IMG/VR virus record: IMGVR_UViG_3300035137_000008
Coordinates: 1 to 31,555 of that record
Reading direction: 5' to 3' (one strand)
From: a virus
Length of the DNA stretch: 31,555 nt
A model generated the notes under the pieces. The model was given only the letters and a program-made list of their open reading frames with translations. It was not told the origin of the DNA and made no database searches. Below, in pieces: positions 3,902 to 28,993 of the stretch. Both the position numbers and the translations under genes were made by a program. Positions within the stretch are counted from its first letter, which is position 1; each line of letters opens with the position of its first letter.

Positions 3902-6900
3902 TTAAGCAGCCTCCCTCATCCGTTCCTTTTTTGACGGTCTAAAAGCTCTTTTGAGCATTGTTTTAATCGTTTTTGGTGTTATCTTGGACATATGCGGGTA
4001 CTTGCTCGCGCCTTTGTTATAAGCGTCTATGTCGTTTTGAATTTCCACCCACTCTGATTTTAACCGTTTATGCATTGGTCGTAAATAGAATTTTTTTATA
4101 CGTGCATAGATGTTCGTTTTAATTTCAGAATAGTTGCGTTCAATCTTTGACTCTTTCCATTGTTTTTCTCTTATTTCTGCTACCCTCGATGGGTTAAATG
4201 ATAGTCCCCTTATCAAAGCATCAGTAAGCGTCGCCCGGGCCTGGTCCTTTCCGTAAAATATTGGGGTGTTGTTTCTGGTCGTCAGCCCTTCGGTATATTC
4301 CCTGTACGCCTTAACCGGGCTTGATAGGGCAAGCGGAAGAATACCCTCAATGCCTTTCGAAATATCACCTCTTATGATATTCCGGCCTCCTTCATATATA
4401 TCGCTGATTACGCTCCCAGGGGCCCCCACAAGGTCGTTTAGTGATGTCGGGACATCAAGTATGTTAATTGCCAAAGACCCCTTTAAAGATATTCCACGGC
4501 CTCCTAACCCTACGATTCCGTATCTTGCATAATTCGAAGCGGTTCCACCGAACTCCTGGCCTACCCATTTGTAAAAGCTTTCTTCAGGATCATCGGCGCC
4601 GAGCATTTGCCCTATTGCAGAAAGTATAGGAGTTGCTACCGATGCCCCAGCGCCGGCCAGAATAGCGGGGGCAAACATCATATAAAGCGCCGCTTTCGGG
4701 TTTTTCTGGTTAAAACCGAGATCCTTCATGGTCAAAAGGTAATTGTGTGAGAAGGTCCGGAACACATAAAACACCTGTGCCATCTTGGCCGCTGGGTTAC
4801 CGCCTCGGGCAAGGTGCGGGTAGTTCGCTTTCCCGTATTCGGCATGAGCCTTGTCTGAGACCGTCTTTGCAGTCTCAAGTGCATCCATGTGGTTCTGGGA
4901 AGTCCATTCGCCTTTATGCTGTGCCTTGATCCCCTTGTACGCGCCGAGGATTGTACCAACCCGGTTAATCTGCTCAGTAACACCAAAGCCCATCATTGAC
5001 AAATCCGTTATGTTGCTCCATGCCCTTCCGAGTTTAGACTGAAGAACCGAAAGCGCCTCTTTGTTATATTGCGCCTGGTGCCATCCTTTATCCTCTATGT
5101 GGTCAATAGCTCGTTTCGTCCACTTATCGAGATTTTTCTTTTCCCCGAATTTATAGGTTTTGTAATTCCTGAGTGCGTTCGTAATATGCCCAAAAGTTTT
5201 ATTTATCGGGATACCTGCATAACCGTTCATTGTAGCCGGCACCGCGGCCACCATGTTCGTAAGGTTGACTACGGGAGCCGATACCCTGCCTGCCAAGTAT
5301 TTCAACACAGCGATGCCTTTCATGGTGCCTATGATCCGGTCGATTGATTCCTGGTTGCGGAGCATGTCCTCCATGTAGGTTTTGGCGTCCTTGTAGGCGT
5401 TCTTCTGTTTGATCGGATCTATTCTACGGGTCTGGACTTCTTTTTTCCAATCTTCGTAGTCGGCCTCGTCACCGGCCCCTTCGATCCGTTCTCGGTATTC
5501 GCCCCATGTTTCCTGAGTCCCGGTAAGCGCCCGCACCATGGTAAGCGCCATGTTCTTTTTGGCTTCGCCGCCGGCCAAGCTTCTGGAATATTTTGTTATG
5601 GCGATAAGTGGATTTTCCTCGTATCCAACATAAACCTCTTCACCGGTTTTCTTAGATCGGCGTATCATATGAGAACGTGCGCCCCGGGCTTTGAATAAAT
5701 CCGCCACCTGTTCGGCCAGGGCCTCAAGCATGAAGTTCTGAAAAGTGATATCGTGGTCGACATCTCCCTTTTTACTCGATAGAGCTTCGTTCATCATTGC
5801 CTCGAACGCCGCCACCTGCCCGACCATTTCAAACACGTCTTCCGGCATTTTACGAGTTGGTGCCACATCAACCTGATAGCCTTTCTTTTCAAGTCTTGTC
5901 TTTTTGAACATCATAGCCGTTCGGCTGTCAAAATGATGAAGCTCCGGATTTGCACCTTCCTTTTTCGCCCACAAAGAATATTTTCCCGGTTTCCGTATCC
6001 TCGGGAAATAATATCCCCTGGCGTCACCCATTTCGGCAAGCGCCTTTTTCAAATTAATTTCCTTTGTTCCGGTCGATGATTTTACCTTTATCTTTCTAAT
6101 CGGCTCCCCTTGCGCCTCCGCTTTTGCAATCAGGTCGCGCATAGGCTGCATAAGAAGGTTAAAGCCATTGTTTGTGATCGTCCTGAAGGCTATCAGGGCT
6201 TTTACCTGCTCATCTGTCCAGCCGTTCTTTTTGGCATTGTGTGCCTCTTTCTGAAGTGCAAAATTGAGCGCTTCCTGCTCTGACTTGAATTTGCTCTTCA
6301 GGGCTATACCGTTCGGGCGTTTTACAACCCAGATATCACCGTCCTGTTCCAGCTTATACCCGATCTTATCCCGGTCCCTGGAAACAAGATATTCCTGAAG
6401 TTTTTTGAATCCGGGCTTGTCTGTTTTCTCAAGATTCCGGATTGTGGCGTTCTGGTCCTCGCCGTTCTGGTCAATGTTGAGCGTGTTGAAAAGATGCTCT
6501 TTATTGTCCTTGTTCCGGGAGCCTGCTTTGTAAATCTCCCACATTGACGGGACTTTGTTGAAATAGTGCATCGGCACTGAAAGCAGTCTGTCAAGAACTG
6601 TTGTATCGGGTCTTCCCGTCTCGACACCTTCCAAAAGGTTTTTGGCGTACTTTTTCAGAAAATCCCATGATGCGTAGGTGCTTTTTTCGATGTGATCGTC
6701 TATTGTTTCCCCGTCTATTCTGAACTGCGTCATGCCTTGGTATAGGGCTTTTTGGCGCATTTCTGGGGTTATGGGAATGGTCCAAACTTCTTTCCCTGGT
6801 AGCGTAGGAGGTTCCTTGCCGTCAACATCGGCTTCAGACTGATACCACATATTCGGTTCTTCAGAAAGGTTAGTCTTTTCGACCTTCGCATTCCCCCAAG

Positions 6901-9900
6901 ACGCCTTATTGAAAAACTTGTTGACTTCGGCGGGGAGGATACGATCATAGAAACCCGCCATTCCTGTGTTGGAAACCGTTATTTCATCGCCTTCAAATGT
7001 TCCTGACTGATCCGGGCTTTCAATAATCTTATCGCCCATAGATTTGCCAATGGCATCAGATATAGCGTTTTCTTTTTCAACCGTATCAACGACTTTTGAG
7101 CCGTTCTTGTATCCGACAAGTTGGATGCCTTTATCCGTTTTTGTCCATTCGATTTTATCGACTTCTTTTTGTAGTGCTTCCTCGTAACGATCAATTTGTG
7201 CCCTACCCGGAGTCCAAGCAATAGAATCATACCCGTTCTCTGCGGCGTAGCGTACCACTCTGCGAAGTGCCAAGCCGACATAACCTTTTGTGGTTGACAC
7301 AAAAGGACCGCTAATGTATGATGCTTGCTGTGAAGCGCCTGACTTAGATAGGAGTTTATTATGCCAATTGATAAGATTTGTGAGAGATGCGGAAAAACCT
7401 TTTCCGTCCGGCCCAGCCGCGCCGCCAAGAGATTTTGTTCCAACGTCTGCTATAGGCCCACCGCTTTCGCTGTTTGCAAGAACTGCGGCGTTACTTTCTC
7501 CCGTCCTCCCAGCGCCATTAGTAGATCTATCGACAACTTCTGCTCCCGCTCCTGCTACTTTACCAGCGAGGGTGCTACCAGGCAAGCCACCATGATAAAT
7601 GCTATCAGGGGAAAGAAGCCCCACAACTTCGCGGGTACTAAGATCGCTTGTCTTCAATGTGGGAAGGAGGTTTATGTCGCCCCGTCCAGAATCAAACGAG
7701 GACAAAAGTTTTGTTCTAAGAGATGCGCCGACCTCTCTCGCAGAGTTGAGGACCGCAAGCCCTATCCTCCTCCTGGTTTTATCAGATATTGGCTTAGAGA
7801 ACACCGCATTATTGTTGAGGATATCATCAAGCGTCGTCTCAAAACCATCGAGGAGGTCCACCACATCGATGGGGACCCCACTAATAACAGCCCTGCGAAC
7901 CTGATCGTGCTTAAGAATAGCCAGCACTCCACCGTCACCTGCCTCAATAGGCATCACAGAACTCAACTTAGCGCCGAAGATATCCTTTCCAAGTTCCCCG
8001 ACGCCCTGTGGCTTGGTAATTTCACTGATAGCCTTTCGGTTTGACGCGGCCCAATCCGACTGAATCTCTTCCAAAAAAAGTATCTTCTCTCCATTTGGGC
8101 CTGTGCGGTCGTTCATTCGGACGTGAACCACGATGTTGGGTTCGTCGAAGTGGGGCGATTTGTATATATCTCCTTTTTTTGTTTGTTCCATACCAGTTTC
8201 GAGTAATTTATTAAGCCTGTCCAGCTCCTGCTTTTCTGCTGCCGAAGCCGTACCGTACAATTCTTCATATGACAAATCGCGGCCATACTTTTTTCTTAGT
8301 TCATCTTGGTATCCAAGGAGTTCATTGTTGATGGCATCCTCATTTATAGGGACTGTTTTTGTTGGCAACGTCAGCAACACTTCCCGGTAATTTTCCTTTT
8401 CGCCTTCCATTTGCCATTGGGAGAACTTGGTATCGTCGGGTTGGTATCCATCTGCATAAATATTATACGACGATACCAAATCTTCTTCAGAAAACCCGTA
8501 TTCGTTTTTATATCTTTCATCAATCTCTTTTAAAAGAATATTAGCTTTATGTTGCGAAATCTGCCCACCGTAATCACGTTTTCTCTCTACCTCGTACCTC
8601 TCACCTTTATATGCCTCAAGCAATCGCTTCTGTTCTGGCGACCATCTTTTTCTCTCGCCCTTAACAACCTCCTCTATTTTCACGTTGTTTTCTGCAAGAT
8701 AATCAAGCACCTGCTGCTTTGTGATCTTGCCTTTTTGGTCGTCAAGCCATTCAATGAGCCCTGAATGATCCAACTCTTCAGCCTTGAACAGCCCTTTATT
8801 AGCCCAAGAATTGACGGCCTGCTTTATTTGCCCCGGCGTTCCTGCCCCTGGCAACTTTTCGTGTAAAACCTGCTCAAGCTTTGATACCCATACCGGGGCA
8901 AGGACATTTTCGTTCTTAGACGCCTGAAGCCCGACCCCCCTCGGGGTTTCTCGAACCTCACCAATCTCAAGATTACCGAAAATATCTTCAGCCGTCTGGA
9001 ATCCGGCACCCCTGAGAAGGTTGCGGAGTTTCGTGAAAAATGTCTTCAACTTCGCATATATGCGTTTCACAAGTTTCGATGACGGTTCAGTTCCATCGGT
9101 CTGGTATACGGCGTATCCCTCTGCTGCGTCCTCTTCATTGCCCTTATACATCTTCATAAGGGTTTTGTATTGTGCGTCTGTGAGTAGCCACCGGGCAGCC
9201 ATATGGAAAAGCTCATGGTATGCTGTGCGCTCCATGGCCATCAGGTCTTGAGCGAGTGCGATCGTTATTACAGATTCAATGTCATTCGTGTCGGTTACAC
9301 CGAGTGTCGCTCCTTTTTGATCGGCCTTGGCCTTGATAATTGGTTGAAGCTTCACACGGAGTTTATCGACCGGGAAACCTGATCGTTCGATTGCTGATAG
9401 GACAAGCTTTGATGCTGTCTGAAGGTCAGCGAGTTTTGCTGTGGTTTCTCCTTTTCTTTCCTGTTTTTCGGTTTTATCAACCTTTTTTGCGGTCTGTTTT
9501 TCAGGTGTTTCACGTGAAACTTTTTCTTGTTTGGTTTCTTTTGGTTTCGGCTCTGGCTTACCAGCAAGCTTTATCTCATGCATCTTACCGTCTTTTGCGG
9601 AAAGAACGATAGAATCTACTGTTATTTCTTTACCTTCGAAAGCTTTATCGCCTACATATTTTTTGCCTTCCCCATTTTTTACATATGCTATTGTCGCATG
9701 AGGGAGATAATCCTTGAAGGTTTCCCCCGGCAGGTCAACAGTATCTCCTACTTTTTTATTCGCAGCTTTCAGGTCCTCGCTTTCAATATCGACCTTTACA
9801 ACATCATAATCGTCTGTTTCGAAAATAGAAACCTTCCCCATCTTTGCCTTTATAGGCCCGAGCCCTTCAAATACGGGAGCGATTTCTTTCGGGTCCACCG

Positions 9901-12115
9901 TTTCCATCCCGTATCGAACGGTGATGTGTGGGTTATCCTCACGACCGTATGAATCGTCATTCGGGTCGGTATAAATCTCATTCTCTGGGATATTGTTAGC
10001 ATATGCCTTTATTTCACCGGCTTCTTTTTCTGGTATATTTATTTGAGTGCTGCTGTAATCATGTGTCTGAGTTTTTCCCTCGGTTTTATCTAATCCGCCT
10101 CGTTGACCGGCTTGTGATGGCGGTACCAGTAATTGATCGCCGCCTGCTTCTTCGCCTTCTTTAACGCTGCCTTTCGGCTCAGCCCTTCCTTCCGATACTT
10201 CCCTGCCAGGTGGTTTCTCTCCTTCTTGTATTCCAGTGGCATTAGGTTCCTCCTTCATCCTGACACCGACAAGCTCTCTTTCGAGTTCATCAAGCAGGGA
10301 CATTTCATCGGTTGTAGCCGCCCTCAGAGGCGTTTTAGAGCGTCTTTCTGTTTTACGTTGCTCTACCTCTACGGGTCGGCTTAAAACACGCCTGTCTGAC
10401 TTCCTACGGCCAAAATCTATGGCTTCCGGGGTGACAACCGCTGGCTTAATTGATTCCTCTTCGGTGGTTGATCCAGGTGCCACCCCGGGCTGAGCCCTTT
10501 CCGGTCCCTTTTCATGCTTGAATGTTTCTCCAGGAGACAGCCCTTGCCCACCTTCATATTCTTCTACAGCCGCAAGAGCTTTTTTTATTGCCTCCCTTAC
10601 TTCAAGCTCTCTGCTTTTCTCATATTTATCAGATCTCAAAATTCCTTTTTGGATCGCTTTTTTTCTATCATCTAATTCCTGCGCTAAGTCGGATGCTTTC
10701 TTAACCATTTCACCAGCAAAGGTATCCGGCCTTATTATAGGAACATTTGAACTCGCCAATCTTTTACCGCTCCTGCGCTGAAATTTTTGTATATCAGGTT
10801 CAATTTCTGCTGCCTGTCTTATTTTTTCAATCCGTTGTCTTTCCTTATCTTCAAAAACAGCAGCAGAGTCCGCTGCCGGTGATTGCGATGGATAGCTTTC
10901 AAATACTTTTGCGGACTCCATTGCGCTTTTATTGAAATTCGGCTGAGTGATGGGCTCTGTAATTTCCTGTATGTTCTCTTGGGTTATCGGTTCTATCGGG
11001 AAAGCTCTTTTGCCAAGCTCGACATTGTTTTCAAATGCCTGTATCGCTTCATCCGGAGTGGTTGCATTACCGATATTCGCTTTTATCGAAAGTTCACGAT
11101 CAATTGCTTTCAGGTCTTCAGGCTCAAGTAACCCACGGCTTGTGATGTCTCCACGGGCAGCGCCATATGTTGCGCCACCAATACCGGTCAAGCCTGTCAA
11201 CACCACTGTAGGCCCAACGACATTCAGAGCTTCGGCAAGTGGCTGTGCTTCTGGCCGTATGGCTGTGTATTTCTCAACCGCTGCTTCACCAGCCTGCTGT
11301 CCTGCTTCCGTGCTCACTTCAATCCCAAGGGACTTGAAAAAGTCAGTTATTACCTGTTTTGCCCCTCTTTTTGCTATTACACCTTCAGACAATCCAAATA
11401 GTTTTGTTAGTCCCTTTGTGCCAAAATATTCGCCGGCGCCTTCGATGCCTGCGGTCGTTAGACCGGCCGGGCCTAATGCAAGCCCTATGATTTTATCGGC
11501 TTCTTCGTTCCTTCCTTCAGCCCTTAATTGCTTTGCCCTATCTTCTGCATTTTCAACTGTCTGCTCGTACTGATTAGCAGCGAAGAGCATAGCCGTTCCT
11601 ATCGGCCCAACTGTTACCGCTGGGATAAGTGAAGGTGCGGCCATCTTTGCACCTTCGTAGATCGTTTTTCTGACAGGGCCATATTCTTCTGTTCTACCTC
11701 CAAACCATTGTTTTTCCTTTTCATCAGCCCATTTTTTTATTGATTCACCGATATCAAAAGCGCCTTGTTTGAACTCTTTTATTTTCTGTTCAACCATGAA
11801 CGGAAAAGCTGCGATCGGATGGTGTTTTTTTAGGAGGTCTATTGTCTCGGGTTCAAGTTCAATATTCCCTGGTAAGGGAGGTAACGATACTCGTGTAAGC
11901 GCCTGGCCTGCGCCTGCAAGCGTTCTGGGCAATTCTGTGGTAGCACTTGCGGCTAACCCGGTTCCGACAGCTTCAATAGCGCCATTTGGCTGGCTTAGGT
12001 CAAGAGCGTACTCACCGAGCTTAGACTTCCAACCGCTTCGAAGTTGTCGGCTTGCTTCAGACCATACATCTTCTTCGGAATTCATTTCATTCAGTGCGTC
12101 TTCAAAAATGCCCAT
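3902..12115 (-). CDS. Giant polyvalent protein (2737 aa) with 2H phosphoesterase and zincin domains
   Basis: One uninterrupted frame, probably packaged in the virion and injected with the DNA. Visible regions: hydrophobic Gly/Ala segments (about residues 155-330); a 2H phosphoesterase-type domain (about 685-850) with H730-x-T732 in NPHITVRYG and H806-x-T808 in LPHATIAYV; a zincin-like peptidase with H967ELFH971 and a likely third ligand E999; a polyvalent-associated segment at about 1073-1150; a conserved phage domain from about 1320 with EEIQSDW at 1349-1355, resuming at G1603-P-F; and a long C-terminal part resembling LPD38-type polyvalent regions (F-R-T-F-x-x-N-Y-L pattern). Residues 1358-1585 are antisense to the HNH gene. 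The start shares TAATG with the preceding gene. Architecture matches the polyvalent proteins described by Iyer and colleagues; activities are inferred from motifs. Confidence 0.93.
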   Translation of the reverse strand: MGIFEDALNEMNSEEDVWSEASRQLRSGWKSKLGEYALDLSQPNGAIEAVGTGLAASATTELPRTLAGAGQALTRVSLPPLPGNIELEPETIDLLKKHHPIAAFPFMVEQKIKEFKQGAFDIGESIKKWADEKEKQWFGGRTEEYGPVRKTIYEGAKMAAPSLIPAVTVGPIGTAMLFAANQYEQTVENAEDRAKQLRAEGRNEEADKIIGLALGPAGLTTAGIEGAGEYFGTKGLTKLFGLSEGVIAKRGAKQVITDFFKSLGIEVSTEAGQQAGEAAVEKYTAIRPEAQPLAEALNVVGPTVVLTGLTGIGGATYGAARGDITSRGLLEPEDLKAIDRELSIKANIGNATTPDEAIQAFENNVELGKRAFPIEPITQENIQEITEPITQPNFNKSAMESAKVFESYPSQSPAADSAAVFEDKERQRIEKIRQAAEIEPDIQKFQRRSGKRLASSNVPIIRPDTFAGEMVKKASDLAQELDDRKKAIQKGILRSDKYEKSRELEVREAIKKALAAVEEYEGGQGLSPGETFKHEKGPERAQPGVAPGSTTEEESIKPAVVTPEAIDFGRRKSDRRVLSRPVEVEQRKTERRSKTPLRAATTDEMSLLDELERELVGVRMKEEPNATGIQEGEKPPGREVSEGRAEPKGSVKEGEEAGGDQLLVPPSQAGQRGGLDKTEGKTQTHDYSSTQINIPEKEAGEIKAYANNIPENEIYTDPNDDSYGREDNPHITVRYGMETVDPKEIAPVFEGLGPIKAKMGKVSIFETDDYDVVKVDIESEDLKAANKKVGDTVDLPGETFKDYLPHATIAYVKNGEGKKYVGDKAFEGKEITVDSIVLSAKDGKMHEIKLAGKPEPKPKETKQEKVSRETPEKQTAKKVDKTEKQERKGETTAKLADLQTASKLVLSAIERSGFPVDKLRVKLQPIIKAKADQKGATLGVTDTNDIESVITIALAQDLMAMERTAYHELFHMAARWLLTDAQYKTLMKMYKGNEEDAAEGYAVYQTDGTEPSSKLVKRIYAKLKTFFTKLRNLLRGAGFQTAEDIFGNLEIGEVRETPRGVGLQASKNENVLAPVWVSKLEQVLHEKLPGAGTPGQIKQAVNSWANKGLFKAEELDHSGLIEWLDDQKGKITKQQVLDYLAENNVKIEEVVKGERKRWSPEQKRLLEAYKGERYEVERKRDYGGQISQHKANILLKEIDERYKNEYGFSEEDLVSSYNIYADGYQPDDTKFSQWQMEGEKENYREVLLTLPTKTVPINEDAINNELLGYQDELRKKYGRDLSYEELYGTASAAEKQELDRLNKLLETGMEQTKKGDIYKSPHFDEPNIVVHVRMNDRTGPNGEKILFLEEIQSDWAASNRKAISEITKPQGVGELGKDIFGAKLSSVMPIEAGDGGVLAILKHDQVRRAVISGVPIDVVDLLDGFETTLDDILNNNAVFSKPISDKTRRRIGLAVLNSAREVGASLRTKLLSSFDSGRGDINLLPTLKTSDLSTREVVGLLSPDSIYHGGLPGSTLAGKVAGAGAEVVDRSTNGAGRTGESNAAVLANSESGGPIADVGTKSLGGAAGPDGKGFSASLTNLINWHNKLLSKSGASQQASYISGPFVSTTKGYVGLALRRVVRYAAENGYDSIAWTPGRAQIDRYEEALQKEVDKIEWTKTDKGIQLVGYKNGSKVVDTVEKENAISDAIGKSMGDKIIESPDQSGTFEGDEITVSNTGMAGFYDRILPAEVNKFFNKASWGNAKVEKTNLSEEPNMWYQSEADVDGKEPPTLPGKEVWTIPITPEMRQKALYQGMTQFRIDGETIDDHIEKSTYASWDFLKKYAKNLLEGVETGRPDTTVLDRLLSVPMHYFNKVPSMWEIYKAGSRNKDNKEHLFNTLNIDQNGEDQNATIRNLEKTDKPGFKKLQEYLVSRDRDKIGYKLEQDGDIWVVKRPNGIALKSKFKSEQEALNFALQKEAHNAKKNGWTDEQVKALIAFRTITNNGFNLLMQPMRDLIAKAEAQGEPIRKIKVKSSTGTKEINLKKALAEMGDARGYYFPRIRKPGKYSLWAKKEGANPELHHFDSRTAMMFKKTRLEKKGYQVDVAPTRKMPEDVFEMVGQVAAFEAMMNEALSSKKGDVDHDITFQNFMLEALAEQVADLFKARGARSHMIRRSKKTGEEVYVGYEENPLIAITKYSRSLAGGEAKKNMALTMVRALTGTQETWGEYRERIEGAGDEADYEDWKKEVQTRRIDPIKQKNAYKDAKTYMEDMLRNQESIDRIIGTMKGIAVLKYLAGRVSAPVVNLTNMVAAVPATMNGYAGIPINKTFGHITNALRNYKTYKFGEKKNLDKWTKRAIDHIEDKGWHQAQYNKEALSVLQSKLGRAWSNITDLSMMGFGVTEQINRVGTILGAYKGIKAQHKGEWTSQNHMDALETAKTVSDKAHAEYGKANYPHLARGGNPAAKMAQVFYVFRTFSHNYLLTMKDLGFNQKNPKAALYMMFAPAILAGAGASVATPILSAIGQMLGADDPEESFYKWVGQEFGGTASNYARYGIVGLGGRGISLKGSLAINILDVPTSLNDLVGAPGSVISDIYEGGRNIIRGDISKGIEGILPLALSSPVKAYREYTEGLTTRNNTPIFYGKDQARATLTDALIRGLSFNPSRVAEIREKQWKESKIERNYSEIKTNIYARIKKFYLRPMHKRLKSEWVEIQNDIDAYNKGASKYPHMSKITPKTIKTMLKRAFRPSKKERMREAA
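5354..5407 (-). repeat. Copy A of an 18-residue coding repeat (inside the giant gene)
   Basis: This segment encodes QKNAYKDAKTYMEDMLRN at residues 2237-2254 of the giant protein. The same 18 residues are encoded at 25139-25192. The two DNA copies match at 45 of 54 bases, and every difference is synonymous. Confidence 0.85.
7294..7322 (+). promoter_or_regulatory. Sigma70-type promoter for the HNH gene
   Basis: A perfect TTGACA (7294-7299) is followed by a 17-base spacer and TATGAT (7317-7322, five of six consensus bases). The predicted start is near 7329, leaving a leader of about 30 bases before the ATG at 7361. The -35 box lies in giant-gene codons that look conserved, while the -10 box lies at the edge of the presumed insertion. 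Inferred from sequence only. Confidence 0.7.
7349..7354 (+). promoter_or_regulatory. Ribosome-binding site of the HNH gene
   Basis: TAGGAG sits six bases upstream of the ATG at 7361, an ideal spacing. An in-frame TAG at 7349-7351 closes the frame upstream, so this start is the only sensible one and supports independent translation on the plus strand. Confidence 0.75.
7361..8044 (+). CDS. HNH homing endonuclease with three zinc ribbons, nested antisense in the giant gene
   Basis: The only plus-strand gene I accept; 227 residues. Three Cys4 zinc-ribbon repeats come first: C7/C10 with C26/C30, C39/C42 with C61/C65, and C97/C100 with C118/C122. The HNH nuclease follows, with H167-H168 in EEVHHIDGDPTNN, N176 or N180, and H189, as in free-standing phage homing endonucleases. 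Translation signals are excellent: TAGGAG six bases before the ATG, and a near-consensus sigma70 promoter 39 bases upstream of the ATG. Its codons lie exactly opposite those of the minus-strand giant gene, and both frames are open throughout. The stop TGA is the complement of giant-gene codon S1358, three residues after a conserved tryptophan. No intron core or intein motif is present, so I read it as a direct insertion of an endonuclease gene. Confidence 0.88.
   Translation: MPIDKICERCGKTFSVRPSRAAKRFCSNVCYRPTAFAVCKNCGVTFSRPPSAISRSIDNFCSRSCYFTSEGATRQATMINAIRGKKPHNFAGTKIACLQCGKEVYVAPSRIKRGQKFCSKRCADLSRRVEDRKPYPPPGFIRYWLREHRIIVEDIIKRRLKTIEEVHHIDGDPTNNSPANLIVLKNSQHSTVTCLNRHHRTQLSAEDILSKFPDALWLGNFTDSLSV
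9506..9521. promoter_or_regulatory. parS-like palindrome inside the giant gene
   Basis: TGTTTCACGTGAAACT matches the bacterial parS consensus TGTTTCACGTGAAACA at 15 of 16 positions, with a perfect 14-base palindromic core at 9507-9520. parS is the ParB-binding centromere site of most bacterial chromosomes. On the minus strand it encodes V-S-R-E-T at about residues 866-870 of the giant protein, in a Lys/Glu-rich linker where codons are free to vary. Binding by a host or phage ParB is inferred, not shown. Confidence 0.55.
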
Positions 12116-25743: not shown

Positions 25744-26088
25744 TCAATCCTCCATCTCGTCCCACATTTCTTTCCGCTCACGGGTCTTGACATCCAGGTC
25801 CTCACCGATCTCTATGGCTGTCATCTGAATTTCAATACGTTTCCTTGGGCCGTCCTGCCGGTCGCTGTCATTAACCGATTTCGAAACGACTCTGCCGACT
25901 GCACGGACCATCACCTTATCATCGACGTTCAGATCTCCGATATCGAGCTTGTCAACCAGCTTCCCATCGAAATCAAGGCGGGTGCCGTATGGATATTCCG
26001 GACCGCCATAATCTTCTGTCTTTGAGGCGGCAACCGGGCTATCATACATCTCTTTCTTTTCAGCTTTGGTTAGTTTTAGGCTTTTCAT
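25744..26088 (-). CDS. Capsid-staple-like protein (114 aa)
   Basis: The opening MKSLKLTKAEKKEMYD, the central GGPEYPYGTRLDFDGKLVDKLDI and the following beta-rich GDKVMVRAVGRVV-type region match, from memory, small phage proteins annotated as capsid staple proteins, which cover capsomer contacts. GGAGG lies four bases before the ATG. It is the first gene after the repeat-rich gap at 26.1-26.5 kb, so transcription of the head block may be controlled from there. The family call is moderate; reality of the gene is likely. Confidence 0.7.
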   Translation of the reverse strand: MKSLKLTKAEKKEMYDSPVAASKTEDYGGPEYPYGTRLDFDGKLVDKLDIGDLNVDDKVMVRAVGRVVSKSVNDSDRQDGPRKRIEIQMTAIEIGEDLDVKTRERKEMWDEMED

Positions 26089-26108
26089 TGTACCTCCATT
26101 TTAAAGAT

Positions 26109-26289
26109 GGAAACTTTTATGGAAACATGCCGGGAAAAGTTTCCTGGAAACATCGGTGGAAACTTCAGGAAACATTTATACTATATCTATTGGTTATCAT
26201 TAAATAAAAATATGTTTCCATTAGTGCTCAAGACCGTCCGCCCTAACATATGTTTCTCGAAACATGTTAGGGGCGGAAACAGGAAACAT
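26109..26289. repeat. Cluster of GGAAAC(AT) half-sites, candidate operator or origin-like element
   Basis: GGAAAC starts at 26109, 26121, 26146, 26158, 26168, 26275 and 26282, and reads on the other strand at 26214-26219; four of these extend to GGAAACAT (26121, 26146, 26168, 26282) and the inverted copy to ATGTTTCC (26212). A near-palindrome with TGTTTC and GAAACA arms (26251-26264) lies between. Several spacings are 10-12 bases, about one helical turn. An AT-rich stretch at 26174-26215 divides the sites. The cluster lies just upstream of the capsid-staple-like gene. Binding by a regulator or replication protein is inferred. Confidence 0.6.
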
Positions 26290-26402
26290 TTAGAGTTTTT
26301 TGCCTCAATCAATGTGTCTTTGGTTCCAGACTTCCAGAACTCGTCTATCAGGCTGTCTATCAATGTTTCTATTTTTTCGCTCAATCTGGAGGGCCCTTTC
26401 AT
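26187..26402 (-). CDS. Doubtful small open frame across the repeat cluster
   Basis: From the ATG at 26402 the frame gives 71 residues. The first half (RLSEKIETLIDSLIDEFWKSG) looks helical and protein-like, while the second half is translated repeat DNA. There is no convincing ribosome-binding site. It could be a real small gene whose end was rewritten by the repeats, a remnant, or chance. I list it because it is the only candidate in this 428-base gap. Confidence 0.22.
   Translation of the reverse strand: MKGPSRLSEKIETLIDSLIDEFWKSGTKDTLIEAKNSKCFLFPPLTCFEKHMLGRTVLSTNGNIFLFNDNQ
26238..26276. repeat. Long imperfect palindrome (hairpin)
   Basis: Arms CCGCC-CTAACAT and GTTTC pair with their complements on the right, with one bulged G and a two-base bulge (26250-26251), around a tiny TC centre: about 16-17 base pairs in all. 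No U run follows on either strand, so it is not an intrinsic terminator. It is part of the GGAAAC cluster and could be a protein-binding palindrome. Confidence 0.65.
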
Positions 26403-26422
26403 TTGCCGCGTAAAAACCAAAC

Positions 26423-26486
26423 ATCGGAATTTTACGTCTTGCCCTAAAATTCTTATCGGAATTTTACGTCTTGCCCTAAAATTCTT
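26423..26486. repeat. Perfect 32-base tandem duplication with internal hairpin
   Basis: Two identical 32-base units lie head to tail at 26423-26454 and 26455-26486. Each contains perfect eight-base inverted arms GAATTTTA and TAAAATTC around a ten-base centre (CGTCTTGCCC). There are no spacers, so it is not a CRISPR array; no U run follows, so not a normal terminator. It lies 30 bases downstream of the 79-residue gene after the portal. A regulator-binding or RNA-structure role is possible. Confidence 0.85.
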
Positions 26487-26516
26487 AATTGCATTTTGGG
26501 CGGTTCGTATCTTTTA

Positions 26517-26756
26517 TCATTGGAAAGCGTTCCCTTGTTCCAGCAAAACGAACCGTTCAGATACTTCAAAGTTTGCTACATATTTGCCTCTTGTACGATC
26601 GAACCTGAACGGTTCCGTACATCTTCCAGTACATCCTATCTCTTTTCCATATTTTGGAGTTTCTGCATATCGATCTACAGGCATAAAATTTGGTAATTCC
26701 ATTGTCCTATCGACTTCATTCGGTTTTATATACGATACTAATTCACATATTTTCAT
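26517..26756 (-). CDS. Small unknown protein following the portal gene (79 aa)
   Basis: The ATG overlaps the portal stop as ATGA, a strong sign of translational coupling. The 79-residue product has charged, aromatic and proline residues evenly spread (ELPNFMPVDRYAETPKYG, FRFDRTRGKYVANFEVSERF) and a C-x3-C pair (CTGRC). No family recognised. It is the last gene before the repeat-rich gap. A minor head role is likely only by context. Confidence 0.62.
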   Translation of the reverse strand: MKICELVSYIKPNEVDRTMELPNFMPVDRYAETPKYGKEIGCTGRCTEPFRFDRTRGKYVANFEVSERFVLLEQGNAFQ

Positions 26757-28993
26757 TGCTGAAACGCCTCCCCCGGTGCTGCACGTTGCCCGGGCTCAGA
26801 AACAGGAGTTGCCACCTGCTCGGCCGGTTTCGTCTTCACAACAGATAGTTCCCGCTGAAGATTTAGTTTGTATGCCGATTCGGTTAATTTGGCTTTCAAG
26901 TCTGCAAGTGTTAGTTTGCTTTCCTCCGCCATCTCCATTTGTTTAATAGCAAAGTCGAATTGTTTCAACTGCATTTCGTGGTCTCGCTCGACCTTTGCGG
27001 CCTGTTCCTTCGCCTTAATTTCTGCTATATCGAAGTTTTGGCGCAGTTTTTCCTTTTCCATTTCGCCGCTTGCCTTGATTTTTGCGGTTTCGATCCTCGG
27101 GTCTGATGGGGGTGGTTGCTGCCGGCGTTCTTCTTCGAGTTGTTTGATCTCGGTATCAGATTTCATGATGTCCATTTTCAGGATGTTGGCAATAACTTTC
27201 GCGCCCTTCTTCCAATCGTACCAGATTGAGAAGTCCGGGTCACCCTTCAGCAAAAGCAGGTCCTTGACCATGTTCGCCTGATGCTGCTTCTCAACGAGGA
27301 TACGGGCGCCTTTCGGATCAACATTATAATCACCCTTGTATTCCGATGGGCATTCAGGGTCTTGCATGTTGAGGTCATAATATCGCGTGAGGTGCGGGAC
27401 TGTGATTTCATCATCCCATAGAACAGCACGGTTTCTATTCGCCACGTTGGAAGAATCCACCAGTATATCGGTCTGCCCGAGTGTTTCAGGCATGTCTCTC
27501 TTTTCACCTTGGAACAGCATTGGGGTAGTGGTTTCCATGTCCATGAAGCGGAGTGCCAGCTCTATAATCTGCTGTAATGCTGCCTGGTTGTTTGTAATCT
27601 GCATGACGTTGAGCGCTTGCCGAACGTCTTTGATGTCCCTGGGAGCGACCCACATTGACATACAACCGATTTTTTCTTGCAATGTGACACTTTCCGACCT
27701 GATGACATGCGCCCCGGCCATCTCCCTGGCATTATCCATCATAGCCCTCCATGCCGCGGTAATGACTTTCTGAGACCATGCCGCGGCCCGGGGGTTTCCG
27801 GACCCGAATACTGAACCGGATACTTCAGACCATTGAAAAAAATCATAAATCAGGTCTTTCCCGTCGCAGGGATAAATAGCGGCTTTGATCGGGATATCGT
27901 TCGCCATGATCACACAGGCGGTATAGCTTTCGTCTTCGAGGCCTTCGCAGTCGCAACCCATTGCGATCAGGTCTTCTTTGTCAACGTCTCCGTGGTATTC
28001 CCATTTTTCGTACGCAAGCCCGGATGAAACAACGTCCTGATTGACAGCATACTTCCCCGGCTGCCCCTTGATCGGAACAGTCGTTGTCCTTTTAGGGGAA
28101 TCTGAAAGAACAATTTCAATGAGTTCCGGAATATAACCCTGGTCGACCATTTTTTTCAGGTCACGCAATTCCCGGGGAAGGATTGTGCCGCGTTCCCAGA
28201 TATATGGCGCCTTCCGGATATTGTCACCGCAACCAGGGGCAGGATATACACAGTCCGGATCGACTGAATATGATTCCGGCTTGCGCTGTTCGATTCGTTC
28301 TTGGCTCCATGCGCTTCCTGATTCGTCCTTTGTCTCTACCCATTTCCGTTGGATACGCCTGACAACAACAGGGCCCTTGAGCACTCCGGTACCGAGTTTT
28401 GCAGCGTTAAAAACGACTTTCCGACATTCAGCGTTGAACTTGCACTCTGTCAGTTGGTCGTCGATGTATGTTTCCATACCGGCCATGCGTTTATCCGCCT
28501 TTTCCTTCTTTTTCCTGGCTATGTCGGATATTCGTATTTGCTGGCCTGACTGCTCATCAACTACCATATTGTCGTTTATATCCACGGCTGGGCTGGTGTC
28601 GGCCATAGCACCGTCCATATCAGGATCCGGAGTTGCCTTTAATCCCCAATTACGGTCATTTGTCGGCATGATGGTGTCTGAGAACCTGCCGGCGCATACC
28701 TCTGTACGACCCCGTATGACATTGACAACTACCTTTGATCCCTTTTTTGTGGCATTCGACTGCGGCCTGATCACCTTTCCGGTCACATAATCCATCATTG
28801 GAGATGGTGGGGAACCGTCCTGGTTTGCGGAAAGAGCCTCGTTATAGATTTTTTCGTCCTCTACCCATCTTTGTTCACATCCGTCTGATGCCCGGGCCTG
28901 GATCGCCTCATCACGTTTTGTTAAAAGGGATTCCGCGAGCGCGAGTATCCGCTTTACACGCTCCCCACCTTGCGTCTTATCTGTTTTATCCAT
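26753..28993 (-). CDS. Portal protein
   Basis: 746 residues, the size of P22-type portals. It lies between the terminase genes and the scaffold, as expected. The N-terminal 60 residues are helical. The middle contains the alpha/beta core with portal-like segments (YDFFQWSEVSGSVFGSGNPR, AWRAMMDNAREMAGAH, TTPMLFQGEKRDMPETLGQ), which resemble the wing and stem regions of podophage portals. Residues about 630-715 form a long charged coiled coil, and the tail is Gln/Pro-rich. The portal ring is the DNA gate of the head and docks the terminase and connector. The start has GGAAAG seven bases upstream and overlaps the previous gene by eight bases. Confidence 0.88.
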   Translation of the reverse strand: MDKTDKTQGGERVKRILALAESLLTKRDEAIQARASDGCEQRWVEDEKIYNEALSANQDGSPPSPMMDYVTGKVIRPQSNATKKGSKVVVNVIRGRTEVCAGRFSDTIMPTNDRNWGLKATPDPDMDGAMADTSPAVDINDNMVVDEQSGQQIRISDIARKKKEKADKRMAGMETYIDDQLTECKFNAECRKVVFNAAKLGTGVLKGPVVVRRIQRKWVETKDESGSAWSQERIEQRKPESYSVDPDCVYPAPGCGDNIRKAPYIWERGTILPRELRDLKKMVDQGYIPELIEIVLSDSPKRTTTVPIKGQPGKYAVNQDVVSSGLAYEKWEYHGDVDKEDLIAMGCDCEGLEDESYTACVIMANDIPIKAAIYPCDGKDLIYDFFQWSEVSGSVFGSGNPRAAAWSQKVITAAWRAMMDNAREMAGAHVIRSESVTLQEKIGCMSMWVAPRDIKDVRQALNVMQITNNQAALQQIIELALRFMDMETTTPMLFQGEKRDMPETLGQTDILVDSSNVANRNRAVLWDDEITVPHLTRYYDLNMQDPECPSEYKGDYNVDPKGARILVEKQHQANMVKDLLLLKGDPDFSIWYDWKKGAKVIANILKMDIMKSDTEIKQLEEERRQQPPPSDPRIETAKIKASGEMEKEKLRQNFDIAEIKAKEQAAKVERDHEMQLKQFDFAIKQMEMAEESKLTLADLKAKLTESAYKLNLQRELSVVKTKPAEQVATPVSEPGQRAAPGEAFQQ

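Follow-up and report, generated by a model that had tools for sequence, protein, structure and literature searches.

A dense GGAAAC array among phage head genes is a probable iteron-type replication origin or initiator-binding locus

Introduction

What role might a dense array of short repeats play among the head genes of a tailed phage? We asked this of the window, by which we mean the whole 31,555-base stretch of DNA analyzed here (virus record IMGVR_UViG_3300035137_000008), which is reported as the structural half of a tailed phage and in which copies of the hexamer GGAAAC crowd an intergenic gap beside a Gp10-like gene. A first-pass annotation, made from the letters alone, had offered three possibilities for this cluster: an operator for the head genes, an origin, or a segregation site. 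Based on sequence comparison and on analogy with known systems, we propose that the array is probably a replication origin of the iteron type or, failing that, a locus of the same type to which an initiator binds. Origin is thus the favored option, with an operator as a rival and a parS site unlikely.

Results

The array comprises nine GGAAAC sites between 26109 and 26287, seven on the plus strand and two on the minus strand. The first-pass annotation was therefore right about a dense cluster running in both directions, although its count of eight was one short. Six sites lie on one side of an AT-rich stretch and three on the other. The first group consists of GGAAAC(TT) at 26109–26114 (plus), GGAAAC(AT) at 26121–26126 (plus), GGAAAC(TT) at 26139–26144 (minus), GGAAAC(AT) at 26146–26151 (plus), GGAAAC(TT) at 26158–26163 (plus), and GGAAAC(AT) at 26168–26173 (plus), with the third and fourth sites forming a GTTTCC-T-GGAAAC dyad. 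The AT-rich stretch that had been noticed among the sites is confirmed as 40 nucleotides (nt) at 26174–26213 with 87.5% AT, and is a putative melting element. Beyond it lie GGAAAC(AT) at 26214–26219 (minus), GGAAAC(AG) at 26275–26280 (plus), and GGAAAC(AT) at 26282–26287 (plus). Six of the nine sites extend to GGAAACA. The reported palindrome TGTTTC-TC-GAAACA is present at 26251–26264, in the middle of a more extended inverted repeat with imperfect arms (26238–26276), and its half-sites are one-mismatch copies of GGAAACAT, namely AGAAACAT at 26250 (minus) and CGAAACAT at 26258 (plus). An outlying one-mismatch site, again AGAAACAT, is found at 26363–26370 (minus). Predicted folding exceeds that of shuffled sequences, both for DNA over 26095–26295 (z −4.45) and for RNA of the minus-strand hairpin of the inverted repeat (z −3.36).

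The cluster is real and is not explained by composition or codon use. Nine copies in 200 bases is the top count of any hexamer in the window, and when the whole window was simulated 450 times with Markov models (orders 1, 2, and 3, 150 runs each), GGAAAC never exceeded four copies per 200 bases. At the density seen outside the array, 0.26 copies would be expected in 212 nt (Poisson P ~1e-11). A chance origin of the array, which we considered, is ruled out by these simulations and by the expected density. The motif does not cluster elsewhere in the window, with at most two GGAAAC per 200 bases outside the array. Separately, GGAAAC is modestly over-represented inside genes (37 copies vs a mean of 23.2, standard deviation 4.3, and maximum of 34 in 300 synonymous-codon shuffles); this excess does not yield clusters.

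The palindrome bears on the segregation-site option, in which the array would be a parS-like site bound by ParB. The parS consensus is a 16-bp TGTTTCACGTGAAACA-like palindrome, and ParB recognizes the whole 16-mer. The palindrome in the array carries the outer arms of parS, and the four-base-centered site mentioned in the first-pass annotation is present in the window as a parS-like sequence: TGTTTCACGTGAAACT at 9506–9521, inside the gene for a 2,737-residue protein, agrees with the consensus at 15 of 16 positions and is thus not an exact match (a site with at most one mismatch arose in 0 of 100 shuffles). Against a parS function of the array, however, the palindrome has a two-base rather than a four-base center, the other sites read GTTTCC rather than GTTTCA, many half-sites are unpaired, and no parS match with three or fewer mismatches lies inside the array. 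We therefore regard a segregation site as highly improbable.

Two pattern scans of viral contigs yielded at least 237 loci with the same motif, and the counts that follow are among the matches listed. The maximum number of GGAAAC per 250 nt was three in 116 loci, four in 61, five in 21, and six to thirteen in 39. We defined a dense mixed-orientation set as at least six copies in 250 nt on both strands, which holds for 34 of the 39 dense loci. Dense arrays share the layout seen in the window, with sites mostly 6–13 nt apart, inverted groups, and often an AT-rich spacer. The extension to GGAAACA occurs at 114 of 150 array sites, compared with a background of 34%, and the reversed pattern had no match in the 34 array records. 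The window palindrome, searched in flexible form in viral contigs, gave no matches.

For 20 of these 34 loci, no more than 120 nt separate the array from the point where a primase/helicase gene ends (3'), and some of the arrays overlap that gene end. These genes include RepA-like AAA_25 genes preceding the array, some with a C-terminal helix-turn-helix (HTH; L061, L110), Prim-Pol together with AAA_25 (L160, L166, L175), and superfamily 3 (SF3) helicases of the VapE type (L205, L229, L251, L044, L126) and the D5 type (L152, L212); near-duplicates among the 20 are L160/L166, L152/L212, L044/L126, and L175/L233/L248. Pfam assignments for 101 neighbor proteins of the 34 dense loci included AAA_25 (11), VapE-like (7), DUF5906 (7), and Prim-Pol (5), whereas AAA_25, VapE, DUF5906, and Prim-Pol were not among the best 25 of 81 families for 117 proteins from 34 three-site control loci. 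This comparison used the best 25 families per set and covered 101 of 134 open reading frames (ORFs) in the dense set and 117 of 148 in the control set, the remainder being mostly short ORFs, ORFs over arrays, and the giant ORF of L202. With phmmer, a helicase within 2 kb was found for 22 of the 34 dense mixed arrays, 0 of 116 three-site, 1 of 61 four-site, 1 of 21 five-site, and 0 of 5 dense same-strand loci; the 13 queries came from the dense loci themselves, which therefore count by construction, a circularity from which the Pfam comparison is free. Two more arrays follow other genes at a similarly short distance, that of L169 (3042–3202) an integrase gene and that of L218 an exonuclease gene. 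Another dense array, at L230 1692–1811, is next to a terminase-linked ORF, and neither AAA_25 nor VapE was found in the L230 and L169 records.

The association with helicase genes was also seen when loci were chosen blind to the motif. We collected 80 VapE loci by protein similarity, 78 of them usable (two had too little downstream DNA), with a query (A3) built from four array-bearing proteins whose own loci are among the nearest matches, and counted hexamers in bins of 400 nt that span the region between 4.8 kb upstream and 2.4 kb downstream of the match end (63–80 loci per bin). Immediately 3' of the VapE gene, in the first of these bins, the most frequent hexamer has a mean of 6.5 copies, and at 50 of 78 loci it has six or more; the other bins give means of 3.0–3.4, with six copies at only two loci, both in the adjacent bin. 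GGAAAC itself occurs at least four times 3' of VapE in 10 of 78 loci, and upstream in 0 of 78. Across 28 non-redundant loci the repeated hexamers include GGAAAC, CGGCAA, GGCACA, GGACAA, GGAACA, GTGAAC, AACAAG, AATTAC, GCAATA, and GTGGTA, among more; some are registers of one longer iteron, and about a dozen different iterons are represented. Since the repeated hexamers differ between VapE genes, GGAAACA is one of the several specificities found in the iteron family that follows initiator helicase genes. Among the relatives of the window, G048 (33% portal identity) encodes an SF3 helicase, and a GACGTT array starts ~40 nt 3' of its gene. The iteron hexamers also differ widely between related VapE helicases (L262–L341, 400 nt 3'), which suggests that origin specificity changes rapidly among them. 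The origin option of the first-pass annotation is thus well supported at the level of the class: arrays of the same hexamer lie 3' of primase/helicase genes, and the motif-blind VapE loci agree.

By analogy, we infer binding, melting, and origin activity for the window array. A phage initiator helicase of the SF3 (VapE/D5) or RepA-like AAA_25 type, carrying a winged helix or HTH at its C terminus, would recognize the GGAAACA sites; once bound, it would melt the AT-rich stretch at 26174–26213 and load itself there. The gene for this initiator presumably lies in the part of the genome outside the 31.5-kb fragment.

One record (G033) bears on the distance between array and helicase. It holds two arrays, one 3' of a VapE gene and a nine-site one 13 kb away (L349 11697–11936, equivalent to G033 51697–51936), between metallopeptidase-like and integrase-like genes as named from their translations, with an AT-rich center near-identical to that of the helicase-linked array. 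It is the one precedent seen for an array remote from a helicase gene. It also lends itself to another explanation, namely that the window array is a second, remote initiator-binding locus, serving copy control or as a reserve origin, while the main origin sits beside the helicase gene. A second dense array was found, however, in only one of the seven records read through (G033 itself), and we consider such a secondary locus rather unlikely.

Several observations weigh against an origin at this place, and they concern the window, the wider class, and the head-gene relatives. Searches with window proteins turned up neither a helicase nor an initiator, the array is not 3' of an initiator gene but between a 79-residue ORF next to the portal gene and the Gp10-like gene, and the GC skew does not switch sign at 26 kb. 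Within the class, the AT-rich spacer is missing from some helicase-linked arrays, phmmer found no helicase in the locus for 12 of the 34 dense arrays, and some dense arrays adjoin integrase or terminase genes. Among relatives, all the DNA retrieved for 75 portal-relative loci contains no 250-nt stretch with at least four GGAAAC, which makes the array lineage-specific. The absence of the motif from the gap in relatives, which the first-pass annotation had named as refuting its reading, thus holds for relatives at 31–48% portal identity, while its other refuting outcome, a copy number no higher than composition predicts, clearly does not hold. Finally, helicases vary among the 17 larger relatives' records (DnaB in three, SF3 DUF5906 in two, others unassigned). 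Because the larger relatives use such assorted helicases, replication modules are swapped among these phages, so that an origin could travel either together with its initiator or alone.

The 75 loci were drawn from 82 candidates, 80 of them from one search and L342 among the others, after loci ending within the portal gene were dropped (in 70 of the 75, the DNA continues for 600 nt or more past the portal); their portals share 31–48% identity with that of the window, nearer relatives being absent from the comparison. In the 1.5 kb after the portal, their best hexamer reaches at most six copies vs nine in the window; an AACAAG cluster in L342 was dismissed as coding sequence. The GGAAAC cluster is likewise missing from MW202426.1 and OR779980.1, relatives by capsid and portal, the pattern search found it in 0 of 5 relatives' records, and none of five metagenome-assembled genome contigs, which hold capsid relatives in bacterial genome contigs, has the array. 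No near DNA relatives of the window were found among annotated phages. Since the relatives keep the order portal, small genes, scaffold-position gene, and capsid without the array, it appears, as far as distant relatives show, to be a lineage-specific addition at a variable spot, and we see no sign that it is a conserved head-gene element.

The same comparison bears on the operator option, in which a phage HTH regulator bound to the GGAAAC sites would control a promoter, located within or close to the AT-rich stretch, for the minus-strand Gp10-like, scaffold, and capsid genes. The array begins 20 nt ahead of the start codon of a head gene and holds an AT-rich stretch, and dense arrays at some other loci (L021, L071, L249) are next to an HTH or regulator-like gene. 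However, no comparable array occupies this position in any of the 75 relatives' loci, the window has no second cluster, promoter-like matches are no more frequent there than chance predicts (2 found vs 2.3 expected), and the usual neighbor of such arrays is a helicase 3' end rather than a promoter. The idea of a conserved head-gene operator is thereby weakened; an operator remains a rival, although an unlikely one. A packaging (pac) site for the small terminase subunit is also conceivable, given that the genes for the large and small subunits (TerL and TerS) lie ~3 to 5 kb from the array and that the L230 array overlaps the start of the ORF preceding a large-terminase gene. Most arrays nevertheless follow helicase genes, and relatives with related terminases lack the array, leaving a pac site very unlikely.

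The lineage-specific occurrence of the array and its distance from any helicase gene are the sole hints of a transplanted or captured origin, that is, of iterons that the phage would carry besides a replication module of its own and that are read by the initiator of another replicon such as a co-resident prophage or satellite. We consider this doubtful; if true, the captured iterons would amount to replication piracy, with the phage replicated by a foreign initiator or titrating it.

Genes in the window run on the minus strand. They encode the small and large terminase subunits, portal, major head protein, and Gp10-like protein, together with an SU10-type adaptor and tail and lysis genes. The array lies in a 428-nt gap (26089–26516), which is indeed the largest but not, as first described, the only large one, since a second of 357 nt lies at 1212–1568. 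On one side is the Gp10-like gene (25744–26088, minus; Pfam 'Major coat protein-like'), from whose start codon the first site is 20 nt away, and on the other a 79-residue ORF (26517–26756, minus) with no family match, followed by the portal gene (26753–28993, minus; PHROG head-tail adaptor by family search). The same gap contains a perfect tandem duplication of a 32-bp unit, ATCGGAATTTTACGTCTTGCCCTAAAATTCTT, at 26423–26486, each unit being partly self-complementary. A minus-strand ORF at 26187–26402 runs into the array; its first ~40 codons are protein-like, it has no clear ribosome-binding site, and it is possibly a small gene disrupted by the array. Rfam and tRNA searches of the window gave no match. 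The 2,737-residue protein (3902–12115) matches the anti-CBASS protein Acb1 only weakly, below the cutoff (E 0.00064).

Discussion

Our analysis links an orphan cluster of repeats with a class that can be tested, the iteron origins used by phage primase-helicases. The rule is simple: within 400 nt downstream of the gene, a hexamer is repeated as an array. This offers a route to predicting origins and initiator specificity from sequence. If the window array is indeed an origin in the head cluster away from its initiator, such origins can move independently of the initiator gene. In one open-access library, we found no paper on a phage origin or iteron with GGAAAC/GTTTCC or on vapE with iterons and a replication origin, and, judged by title and start of abstract, none of the papers listed for GGAAACA/TGTTTCC with phage and repeats is about such an array.

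The P4 iteron is GGTGAACA, which is similar to the GTGAACA repeats 3' of the L322 helicase gene. The P4 alpha protein, a primase-helicase, is described as binding its origin repeats (ori/crr) through a winged helix and then unwinding and priming (PMC4234260); the window hexamer differs from those repeats. Phage-satellite origins are described as lying 3' of the initiator gene, with iterons on both sides of an AT-rich stretch (PMC6092414), and the pri-rep-ori arrangement of phage-inducible chromosomal islands (PICIs) and Staphylococcus aureus pathogenicity islands (SaPIs) resembles the window array in its iterons around an AT-rich stretch. Like PICI/P4-type origins, the window array has several copies of one iteron within ~250 bp in both orientations and an AT-rich region flanked by iterons. 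In PICIs and SaPIs, however, the origin lies immediately 3' of the initiator, whereas the window array lies between the portal and Gp10-like genes with no initiator in 31.5 kb, and those elements are satellites, while the window belongs to a phage with its own head genes. With neither a helicase nor an initiator gene found in the window, the array does not have the position behind an initiator gene that defines this type, and because such a location was looked for and not found, we do not claim the PICI/P4 origin type outright; by analogy, the array would work like one. The pRN1 origin is described as a large stem-loop 3' of a primase/SF3 replication gene that functions when moved and has no iterons (PMC4234260); the window array also has a hairpin and, unlike the pRN1 origin, combines it with iterons.
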